Shown here piece after piece: positions 52,351 through 64,000 of a DNA stretch of 64,000 nt. The notes under the pieces were generated by a model, which saw nothing but the letters and a program-made list of their open reading frames with translations, was not told the origin of the DNA and did no database searches. The first letter of the stretch is position 1. Every line of letters starts with the position of its first letter. The translations under genes and the position numbers were made by a program. The stretch covers positions 2,294,001 to 2,358,000 of the forward strand of contig JAVHKY010000024.1 of assembly GCA_035079385.1 (NCBI GenBank), read 5' to 3'. This DNA comes from Aspidiotus rigidus (Eukaryota > Arthropoda > Insecta > Hemiptera > Diaspididae).

Positions 52351-52995
52351 AAAGAATACAAGATAGAACAAAAATGTGTTAAAATCACTATCGTAAAATT
52401 GTGTCAAAGAACAATCAGTTCAATGCCTATTTTCCATCGCTTTCGATCGTTGCGATATTCTAATCTTTCGACAGGTCTGCACTCAGGGCGATTATTCGGC
52501 TGCGAAAGGTTGAAACGAACAAAAACGATGTAAATCAGTGTATGGTTCTACTTCTCGTTTTCTGTCTGAACTTACCTTCTGGGAGATCAATTCGCTCATT
52601 TTCTATCAACTTTAGAACGCTGCTCGTTCTGTATGGATGGCTACATCGCCGTGTGCACGGTTTCAAAACGAACACCATTATAGATTTAAAAATCAAACGA
52701 TTACTTTTATCGTTGGGCAGTTGTCTGAAATGAAATGAAATGTATGAATAGAATACTAGTTATATGCTGAATTGTGTTAGAGGATAATGTTACTTACCTT
52801 TTTAAAGATTTGATAAAATATTCGTCGACTATCCCAAACGCAGGTTGGATAAGTTCAAGGGCTATCGCCTTTAATGTTGAGGTGGTTACCTCCGACGACG
52901 TGTTCTCTATTCTCGTCCGAAATTCGTTCGATAGGTATTCGAGCTGTGACATGGATATTGTAATTAGTTTATTTCGAAGATAGGAGTAGTAAGGT

Positions 52996-53457
52996 CCCCC
53001 CTTCGGTACACCTGTACCGAAAGGGTGACTGTATGGAAAAAAAATATTTGGAAAAAAAAATTGAAAAAAAAAATAATAAAAAAAAATTGAAAAAAAAATA
53101 AAAATAAAAATAAAAAATAATTATATTATTTCAACCTTCGCCACGAGCCTAGAACTGTACCGAAAGGGGGACTGTATAAAAAAATAAAATAATAAAAAAA
53201 TTAAAAATTAAAAAAAAAAATAAATAAAATAAAATATAAATATATTTTTTTATATGTAAGTGTGAGTCTAGAACTGTACCGAAAGGGTGACTGGATGAAA
53301 AAAGTATATCTAATAAGTCTATAAGTGTACCGAAAGGGTGACTGAATAAATAAATAAAAATAAATTAATTAATTAATTAATTTAAAAAATAAAATAAAAA
53401 TAAAAATATATTATTTCAAACACCCAATGAGTCTAGAAGTGTACTGAAAGGGGGACT
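52996..53457 (+). repeat. Iterated GTACCGAAAGGG motif at the left flank of the viral module
   Basis: GTACCGAAAGGGTGACTG or a close variant occurs at 53,014, 53,157, 53,276, 53,327 and 53,441, each of the last four preceded by (G/C)(T/C)CTA(G/T)AA. A head-to-head inverted copy at 52,996-53,009 makes a hairpin with the first. The spacers are almost pure A/T. This sits at the transition from host-like DNA to the viral genes and could be a replication or terminal region, or a host satellite. Confidence 0.7.
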
Positions 53458-53678: not shown

Positions 53679-54032
53679 TCAATAATGTGATATAAACATG
53701 ATTTTAGCTGTTGGGTGGTAACTCATTACATCCCATCTACCCCAAAACTTGGCCTTAAAAAATAGATCTTGATCGTCGTCATCAATTGACATACATGTGT
53801 AGAGTATGGTTCTTTTTTTAATTTCTTGCAAAAGTTCTACAAAATATTCTCTGTTTCTATAACTATATTTTATTAATTTTCTGTATTTTCTCGAGCTCAC
53901 ATTCTCTGAATCATAAAAGGTGAGCATATATTTATCATTTTCTGTCATTCTTCCTAAAACACAACTAGCTTCTAATTTATCATCTATATAGAGAAGACAG
54001 AGATGTTTCCAAAACTCAAATCTTTTCCCCAT
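53679..54032 (-). CDS. Unrecognised 117-residue protein, leftward gene of viral module
   Basis: The ATG at 54,030-54,032 starts MGKRFEFWKHLCLLYIDDKL; the protein ends HPTAKIMFISHY. The frame is open upstream to a TAG at about 54,118, immediately after an acceptor-like CTGTAG, so the true protein may be longer and spliced from the 54,170-54,358 ORF through a donor at AGG|GTAGGC in matching phase. It is rich in aromatic and charged residues, with no membrane segment. I do not recognise it. It runs away from the polymerase gene and may share its control region. Confidence 0.5.
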   Translation of the reverse strand: MGKRFEFWKHLCLLYIDDKLEASCVLGRMTENDKYMLTFYDSENVSSRKYRKLIKYSYRNREYFVELLQEIKKRTILYTCMSIDDDDQDLFFKAKFWGRWDVMSYHPTAKIMFISHY

Positions 54033-54169: not shown

Positions 54170-54358
54170 CTAGAGTGTCTTACTTTTATAATGTTCTATT
54201 CGTTTTTTACGTTCTTCCAATTCTTCCCAATAAGTTTGTAATTTTTCTTTTTGTATTTCTCGTTCACGTTGTTCCTGTAAAGAATTATATTTCCCAGAGC
54301 CTACCCTTTTGAACGAGCATTCTTCAATCTCTTCGTGTTTACGTTTTTTATTCTCCAT
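54170..54358 (-). CDS. Small charged coiled-coil protein, leftward gene
   Basis: The 62-residue ORF starts MENKKRKHEEIEECSFKRV and ends in a Glu/Lys/Arg-rich helix (YWEELEERKKRIEHYKSKTL). KKRK could be a nuclear localisation signal. It begins about 620 bp from the polymerase start in a divergent arrangement. It may stand alone or be the first exon of the next leftward ORF. Function unknown. Confidence 0.45.
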   Translation of the reverse strand: MENKKRKHEEIEECSFKRVGSGKYNSLQEQREREIQKEKLQTYWEELEERKKRIEHYKSKTL

Positions 54359-54890
54359 AATGTAAGTGCGAAAATAACGAGCAGAAACGATAGCCTATTT
54401 ACATGTGTCGTGACGGAAAGAAATTGACATCGAAGCTTCCGAGAAGTGTGAAATACAGTTACGTATTACGACTGAAACCTATGTCATACGGACGAATGAG
54501 GGAAAAAAAACACAGTTACTTATTGTCGGGAAACAGTATATCTAGTATAACGAATTTATTGATTCAGAATACAGTCGAGTTTTTGTCGACATTGTTGCTT
54601 ACGATAACTATAATAAAAGTATCTCTTTATGGTAATATAGAGTTCGTCAAAATGATCGCTGAAACAGAAGAAAAAAAAACATTGGAATGTAAAAAAAAAA
54701 GGTATTCAGTTATAGAATGTGAACGCTTCCACAGCGCTCGAGCACACGTGCCGACGACGAATTCTCAGTAATTAACGCTTCCGCGACATTCGATACACCT
54801 GTGGTGTCCGACAAAACTGTTTTGACAGTCGTGAAAATAATATTCGGACAACGACGAATATATGAGACTCCGCCCACTCGACCAAAAAAT

Positions 54891-54973: not shown

Positions 54974-57900
54974 ATGACACAAGCTTTCGTTTCCGCAATT
55001 AATAACAGTTCTTTTAAGAACTTATGTGTGAAAGAATTGCGCGAGCAAGCTCGCGAAAATAGAATTAAATATTATTATAAGTTAAAAAAAATAGATTTAA
55101 TTATAGCGTTAGAAAAAATTAACCCCAAAAAAATTAACTACTTAGTCGTAGAGAATAGTTTAGATTTAAGTACTAACAATTTAATTACTTTAAAACACAT
55201 CGCAGCCGGTTACGGCATCGCGAAATATTATAAATTTAGGAAAGGTGAACTTATCGCGGCGATTATCGACGCTGATTTAAATTTAGAAAATAATAATTTT
55301 GTACTTTCTTCAAAAAAACAGCAAATAACATTTCAAATCCCGTCCCCTATCAAACCCCTACCATCTCCTAGAACAATGGAAATGTACTTAGGTATTCAAG
55401 AAGACAAGAAGGAAAAAACTGTACCAGTGTCCATTCCATGGGAGAAAATTCTCAACGTTCCTGAACAAAATGATGAAGAAGAAGAAGATAATCATTTCCA
55501 GAATATGGTGCACCAGCGTAAGAAGGACATCCTTTCAGATGACGATGAAAAAATTGTAAGTCCGAAACCGGAAAAAGTGGTAAGTCGAAGAAAGAAAACT
55601 ATTTGTAAAAATAAGAAAAATAGACCTGAAAATGTAGTTCCTTCTTCCCTTTTTAAATTAGGTTCTCGTACAGATGTAAAATGTAGTGTCGGTGATAAAA
55701 AACTATATGAATTAGAAAATATTTCCCCCCTTGTTTCAAAAAATAGTGATAATAACGACGATATATTCGAACAGCTCTTATGTACACGAAAAAGAACTGC
55801 TCCTCTCCCTCTCGCGAAATATTTCCCGAAAAAATTAGAGGAGAAAAATATATTAGAACAAGATCTATTTCTCTCATCATCAGATGATGAAGAGGACGAA
55901 CCTGTAAATATTTTAAACGATGATCTATTTTTAAGCGATGATGAACAGGCCGAACCTGTAAATATTTTAAACAATGATGATCCAGAATGGGACGAATTAG
56001 AGGTTAGGATGGATAATTTTTTAAGTTGTAGTAAAAATATGCCCGTATATGTGTCGGATGAAGAGCTCGAAAAATTGTCAGAGGACCCATGTTACGTGAA
56101 TAGTGAAAATTTTATTATTGACGATGAGGAAAATACGAATTTCATTTTGGAACAAGACCTGGCTTGCAATGAGCAAATGTTAAGACAAGAAAATATTTTA
56201 AATAATAATATTTTAGATTTATTTGATCCTGACGCTGCGGCCGCGGCATTATTTTCCAATACTAATGAACTCGTAAACAATTTAGATAATTATTTACTTA
56301 TTGATAGTGACTTGAACAATTTACTTACTAAGGAGGTAGTGCAAAATTTTATGAGTGAAGAGAATCTAATTAATGACGAAATGTTAGAAGATTTTGAAAA
56401 TGATAGTTTTCAGATCCCAGTCTGCGAAAATTTTATGAGTGATTTGAATAATTTACTCACTAACGAGGTAGTGCAAAATTTTATGAGTGAAGAGAATCTA
56501 ATTAATGACGAAATATTAGAAGATTTTGAAAATGATAGTTTTCAGATCCCAGTCTGTGAAAATGTGAATAATTTTAACGATTTAACAACTGACGAAAACA
56601 TGAATGGTGTGCACATAGAAGTTACACTTCCTGATACAGGATATACGTTCTCTTCCTATTTCCCCAATTTAAACCTAGCAGAATTCAAGCAAAAATGCGC
56701 GATGTTTTGGAATGAGGCGAATATCGAGACAAGAAATGGTTTATGGATTAACTTGGCGAGATTCGACAAAAAGAAGAAAGAAATGGAAAAAAAGTTGAAA
56801 CCTTTTTTAGACTCAAAATTTCGTAAACGGATGTATAAGAGTAGGTTTGAAAAAAAAGTGAGATTTTCCGAACAAAATAGCGTACATTTCTTAGACTCTA
56901 GAGAAGAAAGTTTTGACCCAGTAAGAAGCTTCAATTTTCGTGATCACATGAGAATGAAACGTAGAATTAAAGAGTTGAAAACAGTGATCGATCCCGTTTT
57001 AGACAATGTTCATCGAGAAAAAATTTATAATGAACGTTTTAATCGAATATATTACGGCGGAGGTGGTCTTAACTCGTATATTAAAATTATAGAATTACCC
57101 GGTACTACTAGTCATGTAAAATTCGGTACCCGTGAAAAACGTTTTCAAATAACTTTGAAGAAAAATATACCACGTATAACAGAAGGTAACATTGTTCGAG
57201 CATGTATGAATAAATTGTTCAGATACGCGAAAAGCACAACAAGTTGGGAAGAGGGTGACAAAATCAATCTTTGCATCCAAAATTCAAAATTTACTCGGGG
57301 TTATATTTCCACGGGAATTCTGTCTTCCTTTGATGATATTCTCGACAAATTGAGCGAAAAACTTATACAAATTTTAGAATCTGACGACGCGGTTGACCTC
57401 TTGGATTGTATTTTCCACTTTCAATTTATTTCTATGCCCAAGGGATCATCGAATGCGCGTAAAATAATTAATTTAAGTAAAGACAAACGTACAAAAAAAT
57501 GTATAATACAGATAAGAAACTCGGACTCATTATGTTGTCCACGTGCTATACTGGTGGGATTAACTTATTATACGAATGTAATCTTGGGTAGGGAATTAAC
57601 TTCTAGTCAGATTAAAATGGTTCGCATAGGTCGAAGACTTCAAACTGAGCTCGCGGAAGAGCTATGTTCTAGATTAGATGATTATAACGAGCAAGGGTTC
57701 ACACTTGAAGATATTCGTAATGTAGAAGAATTACTCGATATTCAAATTAAAGTTGTTTGCGCTGAAAGTCTGAATAAAGTAATTTACGATGGCGCTCGCG
57801 AACAGGATATAAAAATATATTTGTACAAAAACGGTAATCATTTCGATTGTATATCATCAATGACGGCTTTTTTCGGTGAGTCATTCTTTTGTCACAGATG

Positions 57901-60900
57901 CAACACCCCGTATCATAAAAAAAATAAACATAACTGTAAAAAAAGGAAGCCAGTATGTGCACTTTGTATGAAGGAGGTGCACGATATCTCCACTAAAAAT
58001 AAGATTTTCTGTCACGATTGTAATCGGTATTGTTTTAATGAAGAATGCTACAAAGAGCATCAGACTAGTGTTTGCTTAGTTTCTTTTAAATGTAAAAAAT
58101 GTGCCAAGATTTGTACTCGAAATGAGAAGCATAACTGTGGTATGGAAAAATGTTTCAACTGTAAGGAGACTGTAGAAATCTCTAGTCACAAATGTTATAT
58201 GTTGAGAAAACCCGCAAAAGGAGGCCGCTGCAAGTTTGGTTGTACAAAATGTGCGCCAGCTAAATATATTGAAGTTGAAGAGGAAACCGTAAGAGATGTG
58301 AGTGAACACGTGTGCGTAGATAATGAAAATATAGAAAAAAATGTAAAACAAAATTATAAAAAATTAATTTTAAAAAATCATCCTGATAAAGGAGGTAGGC
58401 ATGAAACGTGTATAAAATTGAATGCGGCCTATGACGAGGCGAAAGAGGTTATAAAAAAGACTCTATCTTATCAAACTTTTCACGAGCATGAGGAAACATT
58501 TAGAATTTTAGGAATTGAATGTGATAATTACAAGGGACCGAGAATTGAAATAAGGAAAAGAAAAATTCAACTCCCGCAGAGGGAAAATAAAAAATGTACC
58601 TACACCGAAAAATACATCTTCTTTGATTACGAATGTCAACAGGAAACAGGTACTCATATTCCTAATCTAATAATTGCTCACGATTTTGAGGGGAACAAGT
58701 ATATTTTTAAGACGAATGATGAATTTTGCTCGTGGTTAATTTCTGATAATCATAGAGGTTATACAGCCATTGCGCACTATGCCAAAGGTTATGATAGTCA
58801 ATTTATTATACAGTACTGCGTTCAAAATACTATAAAACCATATACAATTTATAATGGAACCAAATTGATGCTTCTAGAAGTCCCCAATTTACGTTTAAAA
58901 ATTATCGATAGTTTTAATTTCATCGCCACTCCTCTGTCTACGTTTCCCAAAACTTTTGGTTTAAACGAGCTTAAAAAAGGTTATTTCCCTCACTATTTCA
59001 ACACTAAAGAAAATATAAATTATATCGGTCCTCTTCCTAATAAAAAATACTACGGTTACGCTACCATGAAATCAGAGGCCAGGAAAGCTTTTCTAGAATG
59101 GTATGTAGAAAAAATACGTAAAAATTATATTTTCAACCTTAAAAAAGAATTAATCGACTATTGTAATTCCGACGTAGATATTTTAAGACGTTCGTGTTTG
59201 AAACTACGAGAAGAATTTTTAGAAATAGCAAATATCGATATCTTTCAATATATAACTCTTCCTTCTGTTTGTATGGCTATTTTTAGATCGAAATATTTGA
59301 AAGCTAATACGATAGGTGTTTTTAACGAAGATTTCAAAGATCAATACTCAAAATCCTCAATTGCGTGGTTAAAATCTTTTGAAAATGAACATATTCAACA
59401 CGCTTTGAATGGTGGGGAGGTGAACATTTGTGGTTTTAAAGTGGATGGTTTTGATTCGACAACAAACACAGTCTACCAATACCATGGGTGTTTCTGGCAC
59501 GGATGTCTAGCATGTTACGACGAAGAAACTCTAAATAATGTCAAAAAAGAAAGGATGGGTGACCTACTCGAAAAGACTAATGAACGTACCAAAGAAATTC
59601 AACTTGCTGGTTATAATTTAGTAGAAATTTGGGAATGTGAATGGAGAAAATCTCAACTGTATAGAAAATTTAAGAACAGTTTTAATTTTGTAGAACCTCT
59701 GAACCCGAGGGATGCGTACTTTGGTGGACGAACTGAAGTAATTAAATTGAAAGCTAATTCAGATGAGAGTAAAAAGGTTAAATTCTACGACATTTGCTCG
59801 TTGTACCCCTCCGTCCTTTTTTTGGAAAAATTTCCACTTGGTCATAAAACTAAGATCTTTAATCCTGACATATATGATAAGAATTGGTTTGGTCTGGTGA
59901 AATGTAAAATCTTGCCTCCTCAAAATTTGTATATTCCCACATTACCAGCTAAGATTAAAATGAATAAGTCTGAAAAATTGGTTTTTGCTCTGTGTAGAAT
60001 GTGCGCCGAAACACAGTCTCGTAAATGTATTCATTCTGTTGAGAAACGCGCCTTTGTAGGTACTTGGACAACTGAAGAGATGAATGTAGCAATATCTGAG
60101 GGATATAAAATTCTAGAGATTTACGAAGTATGGCACTTTGAAAGTTGTACCAATATTTTCAAGGCTTATATTCAAGAATTTATGAAAATAAAATTAGAAT
60201 CTAGTCCTCATTCTTATTCGTCAAATGAAGCCTATATGGATGATGTAGAAAAGAGACAAGGTATAAAATTGAATTTAGCCAATATAAAACCTAATCCTGT
60301 GAGAAGAACATTAGCAAAACTTGCCATGAATTCGTTGTACGGAAAATTTGGTCAACGTAATAATATGTCGCAAAATGAATTTGTTACCGATGTTGCCAGA
60401 TTTTACGAACTTTTACTCGATACCAGATTAACCGACGTAAATTTGATTTTCATTAACGATAATATGGTACAAATTACCTACAAGTTCAAAGAATATTACG
60501 TTAAAAATAACTACAATACAAACATTCTCCTCGCCCTTTTTACCACAAGTCACGCACGTCTCAGACTATATGAAACAATTTCCAAGTTGGGAGGGGCTGC
60601 CATCTATATGGACACGGATTCTATTATGTATTACGACGACGGATTAAATAGTATTCCATCGGGTGATCTTCTTGGGGAATGGACTGATGAGTTGGATGGT
60701 GGACATATTACAAAAATGCTAGCTTCAGGTCCAAAATCCTATTATTATAAAACTAATAAAAATAAAGACTGTACAAAAATAAAAGGTTTCACTCTTCACC
60801 ATAAAAATGCTGAGAAATTAAATGCGGAAGCTTTGGAGAAGTTAATTGACAGGGAAATTGACCATATAAAGGTGACTAATAATCGGATATTTAGGAATAA

Positions 60901-61012
60901 AGAAACCAAACAACTTGTGAATAAAGATGAGACAAAAACTCTTTCTTTCAATTTTGATAAACGTATTATTGTAGAAAATTACAACACTGTACCTTACGGT
61001 TATAAGGGTTAG
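54974..61012 (+). CDS. Multidomain family-B (probably protein-primed) DNA polymerase
   Basis: An intact 2012-codon ORF. Two SAP/Rho-N-like motifs come first (about residues 10-48 and 65-105; KELREQARENRIKYYYKLKK and the similar KHIAAGYGIAKYYKFRK). A long acidic region to about 570 contains a 44-residue duplication. A conserved block with CCPRAILVGLTYY (854 on) and YLYKNGNHFDCI follows, then a CxxC/CxxH zinc cluster (about 974-1075). HPDKGG at 1136 marks a DnaJ-like helix pair. The DEDD exonuclease shows FFDYECQ (D1218, E1220), GYDSQF (D1274) and Y1396-D1400. An insert with VDGFD and YHGCFWHGC (about 1490-1557) resembles a restriction-endonuclease-like fold. The palm has DICSLYPS (D1606), K1782-MNSLYG (N1786), DTDS (D1880, D1882) and K1921-SY. 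These are the motifs of Polinton- and adintovirus-type polymerases. Length is about twice that of a bare protein-primed polymerase. Every catalytic residue I checked is present. Confidence 0.92.
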   Translation: MTQAFVSAINNSSFKNLCVKELREQARENRIKYYYKLKKIDLIIALEKINPKKINYLVVENSLDLSTNNLITLKHIAAGYGIAKYYKFRKGELIAAIIDADLNLENNNFVLSSKKQQITFQIPSPIKPLPSPRTMEMYLGIQEDKKEKTVPVSIPWEKILNVPEQNDEEEEDNHFQNMVHQRKKDILSDDDEKIVSPKPEKVVSRRKKTICKNKKNRPENVVPSSLFKLGSRTDVKCSVGDKKLYELENISPLVSKNSDNNDDIFEQLLCTRKRTAPLPLAKYFPKKLEEKNILEQDLFLSSSDDEEDEPVNILNDDLFLSDDEQAEPVNILNNDDPEWDELEVRMDNFLSCSKNMPVYVSDEELEKLSEDPCYVNSENFIIDDEENTNFILEQDLACNEQMLRQENILNNNILDLFDPDAAAAALFSNTNELVNNLDNYLLIDSDLNNLLTKEVVQNFMSEENLINDEMLEDFENDSFQIPVCENFMSDLNNLLTNEVVQNFMSEENLINDEILEDFENDSFQIPVCENVNNFNDLTTDENMNGVHIEVTLPDTGYTFSSYFPNLNLAEFKQKCAMFWNEANIETRNGLWINLARFDKKKKEMEKKLKPFLDSKFRKRMYKSRFEKKVRFSEQNSVHFLDSREESFDPVRSFNFRDHMRMKRRIKELKTVIDPVLDNVHREKIYNERFNRIYYGGGGLNSYIKIIELPGTTSHVKFGTREKRFQITLKKNIPRITEGNIVRACMNKLFRYAKSTTSWEEGDKINLCIQNSKFTRGYISTGILSSFDDILDKLSEKLIQILESDDAVDLLDCIFHFQFISMPKGSSNARKIINLSKDKRTKKCIIQIRNSDSLCCPRAILVGLTYYTNVILGRELTSSQIKMVRIGRRLQTELAEELCSRLDDYNEQGFTLEDIRNVEELLDIQIKVVCAESLNKVIYDGAREQDIKIYLYKNGNHFDCISSMTAFFGESFFCHRCNTPYHKKNKHNCKKRKPVCALCMKEVHDISTKNKIFCHDCNRYCFNEECYKEHQTSVCLVSFKCKKCAKICTRNEKHNCGMEKCFNCKETVEISSHKCYMLRKPAKGGRCKFGCTKCAPAKYIEVEEETVRDVSEHVCVDNENIEKNVKQNYKKLILKNHPDKGGRHETCIKLNAAYDEAKEVIKKTLSYQTFHEHEETFRILGIECDNYKGPRIEIRKRKIQLPQRENKKCTYTEKYIFFDYECQQETGTHIPNLIIAHDFEGNKYIFKTNDEFCSWLISDNHRGYTAIAHYAKGYDSQFIIQYCVQNTIKPYTIYNGTKLMLLEVPNLRLKIIDSFNFIATPLSTFPKTFGLNELKKGYFPHYFNTKENINYIGPLPNKKYYGYATMKSEARKAFLEWYVEKIRKNYIFNLKKELIDYCNSDVDILRRSCLKLREEFLEIANIDIFQYITLPSVCMAIFRSKYLKANTIGVFNEDFKDQYSKSSIAWLKSFENEHIQHALNGGEVNICGFKVDGFDSTTNTVYQYHGCFWHGCLACYDEETLNNVKKERMGDLLEKTNERTKEIQLAGYNLVEIWECEWRKSQLYRKFKNSFNFVEPLNPRDAYFGGRTEVIKLKANSDESKKVKFYDICSLYPSVLFLEKFPLGHKTKIFNPDIYDKNWFGLVKCKILPPQNLYIPTLPAKIKMNKSEKLVFALCRMCAETQSRKCIHSVEKRAFVGTWTTEEMNVAISEGYKILEIYEVWHFESCTNIFKAYIQEFMKIKLESSPHSYSSNEAYMDDVEKRQGIKLNLANIKPNPVRRTLAKLAMNSLYGKFGQRNNMSQNEFVTDVARFYELLLDTRLTDVNLIFINDNMVQITYKFKEYYVKNNYNTNILLALFTTSHARLRLYETISKLGGAAIYMDTDSIMYYDDGLNSIPSGDLLGEWTDELDGGHITKMLASGPKSYYYKTNKNKDCTKIKGFTLHHKNAEKLNAEALEKLIDREIDHIKVTNNRIFRNKETKQLVNKDETKTLSFNFDKRIIVENYNTVPYGYKG
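56309..56563 (+). repeat. In-frame 132-bp tandem duplication within the polymerase ORF
   Basis: A segment starting at 56,309 is repeated from 56,441 with few changes, exactly 44 codons apart. The repeated peptide includes EVVQNFMSEENLINDE and EDFENDSFQIPVCEN. The frame is kept, so it lengthens the acidic linker. Confidence 0.9.
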
Positions 61013-61048: not shown

Positions 61049-61474
61049 ATGATGGACGAAGTGAAAAAACCTCTCGTCTGTTTCGATGATTTACAAAGAG
61101 ACGTGATACATACAATTCAAAATAAAAAATATACGGGAGCTTACTGCACCCTCGCGTTGGAAAACGTGAGAATTAAAGTACCTATACATAGAATTTCTTT
61201 ACAGAGAGATTTTGTTCGATTTACTGGTCGAGAAATTGAATTTTTACGTCCCAATTATATGTACTGTTTCTGTGAGAAAAATTGTACAGAGTGTAAATGT
61301 ACCGATAGTTTAACGTACGAATTTAAACCATGTAGATGTGTATATAAGATTTATAATTTTGCAAAATTTGTAGAGCGAGTTGATAAATTATTAGATAATC
61401 CTAATATTTGGTGCCGAGAGTGTCGAAACTATAGTTGGTACTGGGACTTTGAACATATAGAGTGTGGTGTATAA
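61049..61474 (+). CDS. Cys-rich 141-residue protein, unrecognised
   Basis: ATG at 61,049 (MMDEVKKPLVCFDD), 37 bases after the polymerase stop. The middle has CFCEKNCTECKC then a CRC pair, and the end has WCRECRNYSWYW. This is enough for two or more zinc sites, with a CxxC pair in each half. It has no signal peptide or membrane segment, so a nuclear or cytoplasmic zinc protein is likely. Its stop codon overlaps the start of the TBP-like gene by one base, so both probably come from one mRNA. That coupling suggests they work together, perhaps in transcription, but I have no family match. Confidence 0.7.
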   Translation: MMDEVKKPLVCFDDLQRDVIHTIQNKKYTGAYCTLALENVRIKVPIHRISLQRDFVRFTGREIEFLRPNYMYCFCEKNCTECKCTDSLTYEFKPCRCVYKIYNFAKFVERVDKLLDNPNIWCRECRNYSWYWDFEHIECGV

Positions 61475-62007
61475 TGGAAATTCAGAATATAATGTGCACT
61501 TTTGACCTAGGTTGTCGACTAAATTTAGCTTACATTGCCGAGCACTGTCCGACTGTAAAATATAATCCTGAGAAATTTAATCCGGTAATAATACGTACAA
61601 AAGAACCAAAGAGTACCGCTTTGATTTTTACCTCGGGAAAAGTAGTTGTGACTGGTACTAAAAATGAGGAAAGTTCAGAGATTGCTGCATATAGTTATGC
61701 GTGTAAGATACGCGAACTTGGTTTTCCTAAGTGTCGTTTCCTAAATTTTAGAATAACAAACATCGTCGCTAGTGGTCGGCTACCTTTTCGACCACCTTTA
61801 TTTAATAAAGATTTTTTACCGCACGAAAAAATGAAATTTGTACAGTATGAGCCCGAATTATTTCCAGGTTTAATTTATCGAAGTGATGTAACCATAATAG
61901 TTTTTCGCTCGGGTAAAGTGAACATAACAAATGCGAAAACGAGACAACAAATTTTCGATGCTTTTGAAGAATTCAAAAAGAGTATAAATAGAAATGTCGA
62001 GAGGTAA
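61474..62007 (+). CDS. TATA-binding-protein (TBP) core encoded by the viral element
   Basis: ATG at 61,474 shares its A with the preceding TAA. The 177 residues are a complete two-repeat TBP saddle with no N-terminal domain. Repeat 1 has QNIMCTFDLGCRLNL, YNPEKFNPVIIR and TALIFTSGKVVVTGTK. Repeat 2 has TNIVASG, YEPELFPGLIYR and IIVFRSGKVNITNAK. The four Phe that wedge into TATA DNA (F35, F52, F130, F144) and the two central Asn (N5, N96) are present. Repeat 2 is three residues shorter between F130 and F144 than in cellular TBP. TBP nucleates RNA polymerase I, II and III initiation. Cellular TBP cores are far more conserved than this one, so it is a diverged, captured gene rather than the host's own. 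Open, compact and flanked by viral genes, it looks functional. Confidence 0.93.
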   Translation: MEIQNIMCTFDLGCRLNLAYIAEHCPTVKYNPEKFNPVIIRTKEPKSTALIFTSGKVVVTGTKNEESSEIAAYSYACKIRELGFPKCRFLNFRITNIVASGRLPFRPPLFNKDFLPHEKMKFVQYEPELFPGLIYRSDVTIIVFRSGKVNITNAKTRQQIFDAFEEFKKSINRNVER

Positions 62008-62047: not shown

Positions 62048-62536
62048 ATGGCTTACATCCTTGATTTTCAAGCATTTAAATCGCTATCCAATCAGTTTAT
62101 TTTGAAAGAGTTGGCTATAGTGAGCGTGGATAGAGGAATTTCTCATCATTTCTTCATCAAATCTCCGGTATCGTCACTTATAGTGTGTAAAAAGTTGAAA
62201 GCGCGAGCAGACTATCTCACAAAAAACATTCATAATATCCCTTGGGAATATGGACACATTACGATAGATGAGGCTAAAACAATTATGAGAGAAGTTTTGA
62301 AAGATGCTAATACTGTGTACGTGAAAGGTTTGGAACGAGTTAGTTTCTTGAAAAAATTCATTTTTCTTTGGGGAACAAATATAATCGATCTAGATACGTT
62401 AGGATGTCCTCGAGCGAGCTTGTTGCCCTCACCCATGTTCGAAATGTGTATGTACGATGGACATTACAAGAATGAGTTTAATTGCGCTATAAAACACGCT
62501 CAAAAATATAAACAATGGTTACTCCGTAGATCCTAA
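62048..62536 (+). CDS. 162-residue protein found beside Polinton-type polymerases
   Basis: ATG at 62,048, 41 bases after the TBP stop. It begins MAYILDFQAFKSLSNQFILK, continues VKGLERVSFLKKFIF, then NIIDLDTLGCPRASLL, and ends FNCAIKHAQKYKQWLLRR. I recognise this pattern (ILD-Q-F, KELA-V, Y-KG-EK--FL, DL--LGCP, C-YH or CMYD, C---HA-K---WL) from uncharacterised animal proteins linked to such elements. The spacing of acidic residues and the C-terminal HA---K-W helix suggest a degenerate RNase-H/DEDD-like fold, but the catalytic set is not obvious. Function unknown. The stop lies inside a block that is duplicated downstream. Confidence 0.7.
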   Translation: MAYILDFQAFKSLSNQFILKELAIVSVDRGISHHFFIKSPVSSLIVCKKLKARADYLTKNIHNIPWEYGHITIDEAKTIMREVLKDANTVYVKGLERVSFLKKFIFLWGTNIIDLDTLGCPRASLLPSPMFEMCMYDGHYKNEFNCAIKHAQKYKQWLLRRS

Positions 62537-62678
62537 AGTAGACTCTACTCTGTTTTTAATAAAAAAATAGAAGTTGGATGTTGAAACGGGATTTTCCTTC
62601 ACGTATAAGACTTCTTGTATATTTCTCTCGTTAGAAATATATCAACGAGGTTTTAAATGCGTCTTCTTCTTTCCTATT
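62521..62678 (+). repeat. Promoter-like repeat, copy A
   Basis: A block of about 155 bp repeated 183 bases downstream (62,704-62,852). It shares ACTCCGT-AATCC, CTAAAGTAGACTCTACTCTG, GATTTTCCTTCACGTATAA and AAATATATCAACGAGG. This copy includes the last codons and stop of the upstream ORF and has TATAAG. Confidence 0.85.
62558..62563 (+). terminator. Polyadenylation signal AATAAA
   Basis: AATAAA begins 22 bases after the stop at 62,534-62,536. A second AATAAA lies at 62,692-62,697, before repeat copy B. Copy B lacks the first signal, as expected if it serves as a promoter. Confidence 0.5.
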
Positions 62679-62703
62679 ATTCCAAGTAATCAATAAATAG
62701 ACT

Positions 62704-62852
62704 ACTCCGTGAATCCTAAAGTAGACTCTACTCTGTTTTAGTCAAATAGAAGTTTGACGTTGAAACGGGATTTTCCTTCACGTATAAACACTTCTTATAT
62801 ATCTCTCACGTAAGAAATATATCAACGAGGTTTTAAATACGTCTTCTTTCCT
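62704..62852 (+). promoter_or_regulatory. Promoter-like repeat, copy B, ahead of the capsid gene
   Basis: The second copy of the 155-bp block ends 12 bases before the capsid-gene ATG. It has TATAAA at 62,783-62,788, about 77 bases before that ATG, plus the shared TATAT and hairpin-like AAGAAATATAT segments. Probably the late-gene promoter. Confidence 0.5.
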
Positions 62853-62864
62853 ACCTTGAAAAAA

Positions 62865-63569
62865 ATGTCGTTCCAAATTTCTTTAAACAGTTATACCTCA
62901 GAATTTTCACGCGCATATCACGAAAGTATAAAATTAGGAAAACAGTATGAAGTATGTTTGAAGAGTTTTGTTACTTTTAATAGTATACCCAACATTTCGG
63001 AAGAAAATGAAAACAACGAACTCGTATTAATTAATGAAGCTGATCATTCCGACGATCATTTTCGGATAGTTATTCCTACAGGTTCTTACGAATTGCAAGA
63101 TATTTTTGAATTTATCGAAAATTATAAAGACGTACCGGAAATTTCGTTTATTTTAAATAAAAATACGCTAAAGGTTCGAGTTCAAAGTCGATGGGTTATA
63201 GATTTTTCTAAAAGAAACTCGGTTGGAAAAATTTTAGGATTTAGTCCTCAAACAATTAGACCTTTCGCAGTCGCATATTCGGACCTACCGATAGATATTT
63301 TCAAAGTAAATACTATAAAAATAAAGTGTAATATAGTTCACAGTAATTTTCACGATCTGAAACGATACGATAATACACTCTACGAATTTCCTTTGGATGC
63401 TAGGATCGGTGAAAAAATAATCGAACGACCTCATACTTTATCATATTACCCTGTGAATACAGATGAAATTCACGATCTAGTAATTAAAATTGTCGATCAA
63501 GACGATCGTTTACTTGATTTTCGAGGTGAAAAAATTTGTATGACGCTCAACTTTCGACCATGTGTATAA
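62865..63569 (+). CDS. Probable jelly-roll minor capsid (penton-like) protein
   Basis: ATG at 62,865 (MSFQISLNSYTSEF); 234 residues. Recognisable blocks: YEVCLKSFVTFNSIPNI; IPTGSYELQDIFEFI (about residue 70); IDFSKRNSVGKILGFSP (about 115-127); IKIKCNIVHSNF; and VIKIVDQDDRLLDFRGEKI near the C-terminus. The GSYE-I-DI ... NS-G-LLGFS ... I-CNI ... DQ-G-L-DFRGE series belongs to a protein that I know from animal Polinton/Maverick-like elements beside polymerase genes, usually read as the minor capsid or penton component. Mostly beta-strand pattern, no membrane segment, which fits a virion surface protein. The capsid role is inference. Confidence 0.72.
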   Translation: MSFQISLNSYTSEFSRAYHESIKLGKQYEVCLKSFVTFNSIPNISEENENNELVLINEADHSDDHFRIVIPTGSYELQDIFEFIENYKDVPEISFILNKNTLKVRVQSRWVIDFSKRNSVGKILGFSPQTIRPFAVAYSDLPIDIFKVNTIKIKCNIVHSNFHDLKRYDNTLYEFPLDARIGEKIIERPHTLSYYPVNTDEIHDLVIKIVDQDDRLLDFRGEKICMTLNFRPCV

Positions 63570-63847
63570 AAAAAATCGACGAAAAACGACGAAAAACGAC
63601 CAAAAAGAGCCAATTTCGACTAAAAACGACCAAAAAGAGCCAGAATCGACTAAAATCGACCAAAAGGAGCCAGATTCATTTAAAATCGGCCAAAAAGAGC
63701 CAGAATCGACCAAAATCGACCAAAAAGAGCCAATTTCGACTAAAATCGACCAAAAAGAGCCAATTTCGACTAAAATCGACTAGAATCGACGAAAAACGAC
63801 TAGATTCACTTTTACAGACGGTGAGAAAATTTGTGGAAGCGTTCTGA
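63560..63847 (+). CDS. Lysine-rich 95-residue repeat ORF overlapping the capsid gene end
   Basis: ATG at 63,560 in the +1 frame overlaps the last 10 bases of the capsid ORF. The product repeats K-(S/T)-T-K-K-S-Q-(F/N)-R-L about seven times and ends DSLLQTVRKFVEAF. A very basic, repetitive protein could condense DNA or act in packaging. Because the 30-bp repeat leaves other frames open too, it could also be non-coding DNA. Confidence 0.4.
   Translation: MCIKKIDEKRRKTTKKSQFRLKTTKKSQNRLKSTKRSQIHLKSAKKSQNRPKSTKKSQFRLKSTKKSQFRLKSTRIDEKRLDSLLQTVRKFVEAF
63590..63800 (+). repeat. 30-bp minisatellite
   Basis: A unit of CGACCAAAAAGAGCCAATTT plus CGACTAAAAT is repeated about seven times with point changes. 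The period is 30, a multiple of three, so reading frames persist through it. Confidence 0.9.
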
Positions 63848-63871
63848 GTAGGTAATTGAAAGAAAAAAAAC

Positions 63872-63934
63872 TTACATTTTGTCTTCTTCTTCCGCCTCAA
63901 ATTCAACTTCGTCTTCGTCGACTTCTTCTCGCAT
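63872..63934 (-). other. Short acidic ORF or first exon, leftward
   Basis: The minus strand reads MREEVDEDEVEFEAEEEDKM then TAA. The end is also a good donor (AAAAT|GTAAGT), so it could be a first exon. It converges on the repeat ORF. Too short to classify. Confidence 0.3.
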
Positions 63935-64000
63935 TGCACCACTATTTCATTAAAAAAAAAAAAACTTGTTAAAAAAATAGAGAACATTTCTGAGTAGGTA

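Follow-up and report, generated by a model that had tools for sequence, protein, structure and literature searches.

A TATA-binding protein encoded by a Polinton/Maverick-type element in the genome of the hemipteran Aspidiotus rigidus

Polinton/Maverick elements are defined by inverted AG...CT ends, 6-bp target duplications, a family-B DNA polymerase (PolB), a penton, a capsid, an ATPase and an integrase. Adintoviruses have been delimited by an OTU-like PolB domain, a hexon BLAST match and a chromodomain integrase (PMC11071296). TATA-binding proteins (TBPs) are described in mirusviruses, which are predicted to reproduce in nuclei and have TBPs among their core functions (PMC12768974), and in the giant alga virus CpV-BQ1, whose TBP and TFIIBs, according to one proposal, turn RNA polymerase towards the viral genes (PMC12085832). 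Here we describe a TBP gene inside a 13.5-kb element of Aspidiotus rigidus, located in a stretch of 64,000 nucleotides (assembly GCA_035079385.1, contig JAVHKY010000024.1, positions 2,294,001 to 2,358,000) that is referred to below as the window. A first-pass annotation of the window had named large nucleocytoplasmic viruses as the precedents for such a gene, a list to which the mirusviruses are to be added.

The open reading frame (ORF) in question runs for 177 codons from an ATG at 61474 to a stop ending at 62007 and is a genuine TBP encoded by the element. Its translation was matched in two stretches by the Pfam TBP profile PF00352 (E-value 2.2e-44, 149.6 bits against a cut-off of 22.9) and its closest solved relative was the human TBP core (1cdw, E 1.3e-42). 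The first-pass annotation had described a TBP saddle with four wedging phenylalanines and two central asparagines, to be checked against the TBP profile, and both that search and the alignment to human TBP upheld the description, with the intercalating F193, F210, F284 and F301 and the central N163 and N253 all retained (human numbering as we take it to be). The second stirrup was shorter, as had been noted, by three residues relative to human TBP (F284-F301 spacing 14 vs 17), and the EPELFPGLIYR stirrup, presumably the one that binds TFIIB, was retained. The start of the gene overlaps the stop of a 141-aa ORF upstream (TAATG), a PolB ORF stops 0.46 kb upstream, and a 234-aa ORF begins 0.86 kb downstream. 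Of the virus-type polymerase and capsid genes earlier placed beside it, the polymerase stands, whereas the supposed capsid gene is a penton, because the 234-aa neighbour folds like one, and a major capsid gene was not found in the window copy.

TBP genes were not confined to the window. A protein search of 441 Mb in 102 contigs returned at least 30 TBP matches, which were sorted into three host genes, nine copies of family A (that of the window element), seven of family B, one of C, one of D, four of E and five fragments. The host genes comprised a TBP, apparently with introns, and ORFs that we labelled TRF1-like and TRF2-like. A larger set of carriers was discounted, as a genome scan with the PF00352 profile added only one fragment (C25:5344633). 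The TBP was intact in all nine family-A copies, where it differed by 0-6 nt in 531, and in 6/7 copies of family B, 1/1 of C, 1/1 of D and 3/4 of E. The polymerase end, 141-aa ORF, TBP and a 162-aa ORF were kept together in the nine dispersed family-A copies, which makes a misassembly at the TBP locus unlikely.

Family B has the order polymerase, A32-like ATPase, double-jelly-roll capsid, 140-aa ORF, TBP, 193-aa ORF and, further on, penton, and was the only family with clear homologues of the window 141-aa and 162-aa ORFs around the TBP. An rve integrase (Pfam) adjoins the TBP in family C, and an integrase 73% identical to it lies beside that of family D. In family E a capsid adjoins the TBP, with an integrase C-terminus nearby in one copy (L037), and this family has in common with the window element a 117-aa ORF (96-97% identity) and a 204-aa ORF (81-88%, with one separate piece at 56%). 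Major capsid protein (MCP) matches lay within 13 kb of 12 of the 27 non-host TBP matches, including all seven of family B at 0.8-1.5 kb. We take the TBP to be a long-established gene in one group of elements of the Polinton/Maverick type.

The element TBPs branched apart from cellular TBPs, in line with the divergence remarked on earlier. An unrooted tree separated 32 TBPs of elements and unnamed relatives, two of them partial, from 18 cellular, host and giant-virus-like TBPs with support of 99/98. When three archaeal TBPs served as the root and the analysis was run without host TRF2 and the two partial rows, the element side received 90/66, and the element clade reached 100/100 once families C, D and E were omitted. 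A forced grouping of the window TBP with human TBP and with the TBP and TRF1-like proteins of the host was rejected by the approximately unbiased (AU) test (p 9e-106), and placement inside the cell/giant-virus clade was rejected as well (p 0.011). By these tests the ORF falls outside the host TBP/TRF clade, and with TBPs in five lineages it is also far from absent in related elements.

A protein-collection search with the window TBP gave 805 hits, 120 of them listed, and the best 23 among those listed were TBPs of 143-241 aa with 47-69% identity (source codes lgn, ena, jgi and ncbi). Two of the 23 were labelled 'TFIID TATA-box-binding protein' and the others carried no name. Three relatives, P0015, P0018 and P0022, had an N-terminal extension like the Rho_N part of the window polymerase (by Pfam for P0022, by eye for the other two). 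Scans of IMG/VR for TBP relatives, penton and capsid gave no confirmed locus. A scan of the same database with cellular TBP gave two loci resembling giant virus (L043 and L044), whose TBPs branched, weakly placed, with cellular TBPs and apart from the element TBPs.

The TBP of family B is under purifying selection. The ratio of nonsynonymous to synonymous substitution (dN/dS) was 0.19-0.23 between copy L026 and five other copies, and for two of these pairs Fisher tests were run on rounded counts, with p 1.6e-5 in one and 2.9e-7 in the other. The five near-identical copies among themselves gave 0.22-0.60 on few changes, with one pair undefined, and families A and B compared with each other gave about 0.2 at a dS of 1.5-1.6, which is near saturation.

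We chose 28 element ORFs from the five families (10 from A, 8 from B, 4 from C, 4 from D and 2 from E), and 19 of them had the motif TATAWA at a distance of 25-125 nt upstream. Shuffled sequences gave a mean of 4.8 and none of 1000 reached 19, and the control scores were 0.18 for random PolB coding positions and 0.087 for host flank. The TBP ORFs of families B, D and E were among those with the motif in this range. This strong enrichment ahead of element ORFs points to a use of the TBP in cis. We favour, with a probability of about 0.65, an element-specific factor that, judging from sequence, would bind the TATA boxes of the element and recruit TFIIB and RNA polymerase II of the host to the promoters of the element. 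The protein would be made in the nucleus and bind TATA boxes ahead of the element's own genes, where its conserved TFIIB-facing second stirrup would bring in host TFIIB and the polymerase. It would presumably prefer element promoters, and the element would then rely less on host TFIID reaching them.

Several observations weigh against this reading. When the upstream regions were read on the other strand, the motif was present in 8/28 cases, above the shuffle mean. In families A and C the TBP ORF itself was without it at 25-125 nt, the nearest in A being at -133. The TATA boxes of the element would also suit host TBP. Four basic residues of helix 2, R231, K232, R235 and K239, which we take to contribute to TFIIA and other contacts, are Y, S, C and E in the window TBP, and some contacts may therefore be lost. 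The TBP neighbours in families C and D were not clear homologues of those of family A, aligning at 17-22%, and tblastn with the 162-aa query did not find the same-place ORFs of these two families. A TBP match lay no more than 15 kb from only 11 of the 93 MCP clusters of the genome, and the majority of clusters with a capsid thus have no TBP close by. Support for a single rooted clade of element TBPs was only 90/66, and the family-E sequences had long branches and an unusual composition. Within family A, both the polymerase and the 141-aa ORF of copy C6 were broken beside an intact TBP, the copy at C52:12.06M had its polymerase and penton each in two open frames, copy C15 had the penton in two open frames and the copy at C21:0.895M had lost the penton.

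An unlikely alternative is that the protein acts as a decoy, competing with host TBP for TFIIB, TFIIA or TATA DNA and so lowering host transcription instead of activating the genes of the element. Retention of the DNA- and TFIIB-facing residues together with the altered helix-2 patch of the window TBP would suit a decoy, but several relatives have kept the basic patch and the enrichment of TATA motifs ahead of element ORFs points to use in cis. Less probable still is a DNA-bending factor serving replication, packaging or the handling of the terminal inverted repeats (TIRs) rather than transcription. In favour of this, the TBP has the polymerase and an ORF resembling an exonuclease as neighbours, and the element is AT-rich towards its ends, but a protein that only bends DNA would not be expected to conserve the stirrup that faces TFIIB. 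A chance retrocopy of a host TBP or TRF messenger with no role, to which the intronless element gene and the apparently intron-containing host TBP gene could point, is barely credible and was rejected on the tree (an own clade, 100/100 without families C-E), the AU tests against host grouping and the dN/dS values of family B, with the five lineages, the conservation of both neighbouring ORFs (141 and 162 aa) in families A and B, and the 23 close relatives among the listed protein hits, three with a Rho_N-like N-terminus, also speaking against it.

The nine family-A copies were compared and the genome was scanned for the 28-mer at their termini, which placed the window element at 52985-66526 (13,542 bp), with its right 2.5 kb beyond the window. 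Its ends read AGTAGTAAGG...CCTTACTACT, AG...CT inverted, and perfect 6-bp target duplications, each different, were seen by eye at 8/8 family-A copies with both ends read. A 29-nt inverted pair at 54705/63832 was rejected as the element ends, the true ends being located at 52985 and 66526. The left end of the ninth copy (C6) lay outside the stretch read; this copy contains about 2.1 kb of extra sequence (L025:1404-4075) with ORFs that by eye resemble another transposon. The features of the element in window coordinates, with the basis of each in brackets, were as follows.

52979-52984, no strand: GATAGG, the left-hand 6-bp target site duplication; its right-hand counterpart comes directly after 66526, beyond the window (end comparison)
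52985-53050, no strand: left TIR, outer part, 5'-AGTAGTAAGGTCCCCCC... (end comparison, 28-mer scan)
53679-54032, minus strand: 117-aa ORF, with homologues 96-97% identical beside the family-E TBP (ORF list, homologue comparison)
54170-54358, minus strand: 62-aa ORF (ORF list, copy comparison)
54974-61012, plus strand: 2012-aa PolB (DNA_pol_B_2) with two N-terminal Rho_N stretches (Pfam)
61049-61474, plus strand: 141-aa Cys-rich ORF; a 34% identical homologue precedes the family-B TBP, and the 204-aa right-end ORF is a 36% paralogue (ORF list, homologue comparison)
61474-62007, plus strand: TBP, 177 aa (Pfam match, human TBP core match, residue alignment)
62048-62536, plus strand: 162-aa ORF, weakly DEDD 3'-5' exonuclease-like fold (predicted structure, homologue comparison)
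62520-62848, plus strand: tandem duplication, unit about 180 bp, that lies ahead of the penton and contains TATA motifs (repeat and TATA scans)
62865-63569, plus strand: 234-aa penton (predicted structure, structure matches)
63570-64000, plus strand: rest of the element within the window; the part beyond it, up to 66526, was read in L015 and holds the right TIR and three ORFs (106, 193 and 204 aa) (copy comparison)

The polymerase was matched by PF03175 with an E-value of 8.8e-58. A weak J-domain-like stretch (HPDKGG, with a DnaJ match below the cut-off) lies ahead of its exonuclease part. The model of the 162-aa ORF, a homologue of which (31%) follows the TBP in family B, had a predicted local distance difference test (pLDDT) score of 70 and only weak DEDD exonuclease matches, the best at E 1.9e-3 and none below 1e-3. 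The penton model (pLDDT 88.5) had as its top solved match the mavirus penton 6g42 (Foldseek E 2.7e-11, template modelling (TM) score 0.44, root-mean-square deviation 9.0), followed among solved structures by adenovirus penton bases, and in BFVD its best match was at E 8.9e-15 and TM 0.75, with a 'putative penton' of a MELD virus among the matches.

Searches of the element in pieces by tblastn (E 0.01) with the family-C integrase, the family-B ATPase and the capsids of families B and E gave no hit. An integrase scan in which 130 of 840 candidates were scored gave no match near the family-A copies, and the nearest MCP match was at least 47 kb from each of the nine. The Polinton/Maverick label of the first-pass annotation holds for the ends, the 6-bp duplications, the PolB and the penton, but these searches of the window copy revealed no integrase, ATPase or double-jelly-roll capsid, a point that the annotation had not noticed. 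In the genome as a whole there were at least 107 double-jelly-roll capsid matches, several in groups of identical score and length. Telomere motifs were looked for at 16 contig ends, and no telomere array was seen.

The terminal 28-mer occurred, with up to three mismatches, at 169 places in the genome, and its reversed control at none. Among 100 listed places, 35 convergent pairs were formed, of which eight contained TBP only, nine capsid and integrase, three capsid only, one integrase only and fourteen none of these. A TBP together with a capsid or integrase was found in 0/35 pairs by gene lists that were a subset, and a check by eye against the capsid and integrase match lists, the latter with 130 of 840 candidates scored, gave the same result. 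The nine pairs with capsid and integrase, C12:475898-488635 and eight others, were designated type F and have the same 28-bp ends as the window element; 6-bp duplications were present at 3/3 copies examined (AAAGTA, AAAATG and GCTTTA). Two loci, C41:5402423-5403058 and C47:898094-898730, hold mini-elements of only 636-637 bp that are bounded by these terminal repeats too.

In one type-F copy, L061 (C12:478500-486000), the penton was 99.6% identical to that of the window element, and two blocks matched window positions 55608-57467 (99.5%) and 62503-63576 (98.0%). Between these blocks lay a shortened polymerase ORF, an ATPase and a capsid. Of this 12.7-kb element 7.5 kb was read, and no polymerase palm was found there. 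The genome-wide profile listing placed no TBP in the element; its integrase and ends were taken from coordinates and short reads. Set against the family-B gene order, type A is without ATPase and capsid, and the type-F copy read is without the polymerase palm and the block of 141-aa ORF, TBP and 162-aa ORF. We tentatively suggest, at somewhat less than even odds, a bipartite Polinton in which A (polymerase, TBP, exonuclease-like ORF and penton) and F (capsid and integrase, with ATPase and penton in the copy read) would help each other to multiply, and in which the TBP of A may switch on the genes of both. Types A and F may instead be mere deletion derivatives mobilised in trans. If the split is true, the two types would make up a virus-like transposon in two mutually dependent parts, and an endogenous DNA element would offer a way to test how multipartite genomes originate.

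The literature searched (top-ranked results, with few subscription papers) yielded no report of a Polinton or adintovirus that carries a TBP, and no segmented Polinton appeared by title among the top-ranked papers on segmented, bipartite or non-autonomous Polintons. Within that literature, neither a TBP-bearing Polinton nor the A/F split was found in print. Both terms do occur together in a vertebrate transposon review (PMC7786948) and in PMC11464507 and PMC12085832, and the TBP passages of the latter two concern giant-virus TBPs. The words 'TATA' and 'TBP' were absent from PMC11071308, PMC10120064, PMC4028283 and PMC12721341, and in PMC12220804 the two matches to 'tata' were the name of an author.

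Like a Polinton/Maverick, the window element has AG...CT inverted ends, 6-bp duplications, a PolB and a penton, and related families of this genome have a double-jelly-roll capsid, an A32-like ATPase or an integrase. It is unlike the Polintons of the papers searched in the presence of a TBP, and in the window type integrase, capsid and ATPase were not found. It resembles adintoviruses in combining a PolB with a penton, the penton model matching a protein of Drosophila-associated adintovirus 2 (E 2.6e-6, one structure match), but differs in its TBP from the adintoviruses as described in PMC11071296, where the words 'TATA' and 'TBP' are absent. With giant viruses and mirusviruses it shares a virus-type genome encoding a TBP, although at 13.5 kb it is unlike the giant viruses in size, and the giant-virus-like TBPs of L043 and L044 fall, weakly placed, with cellular TBPs. 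Beta- and gammaherpesviruses are said to form a late pre-initiation complex with a viral TBP mimic for late genes. The proposed role is similar in that a viral factor would replace TBP to bring host RNA polymerase II to viral promoters, whereas the protein described here is, by sequence, a full TBP. A TBP used in this way by a 13.5-kb transposon would show that takeover of the first step of RNA polymerase II transcription is not limited to large viruses.
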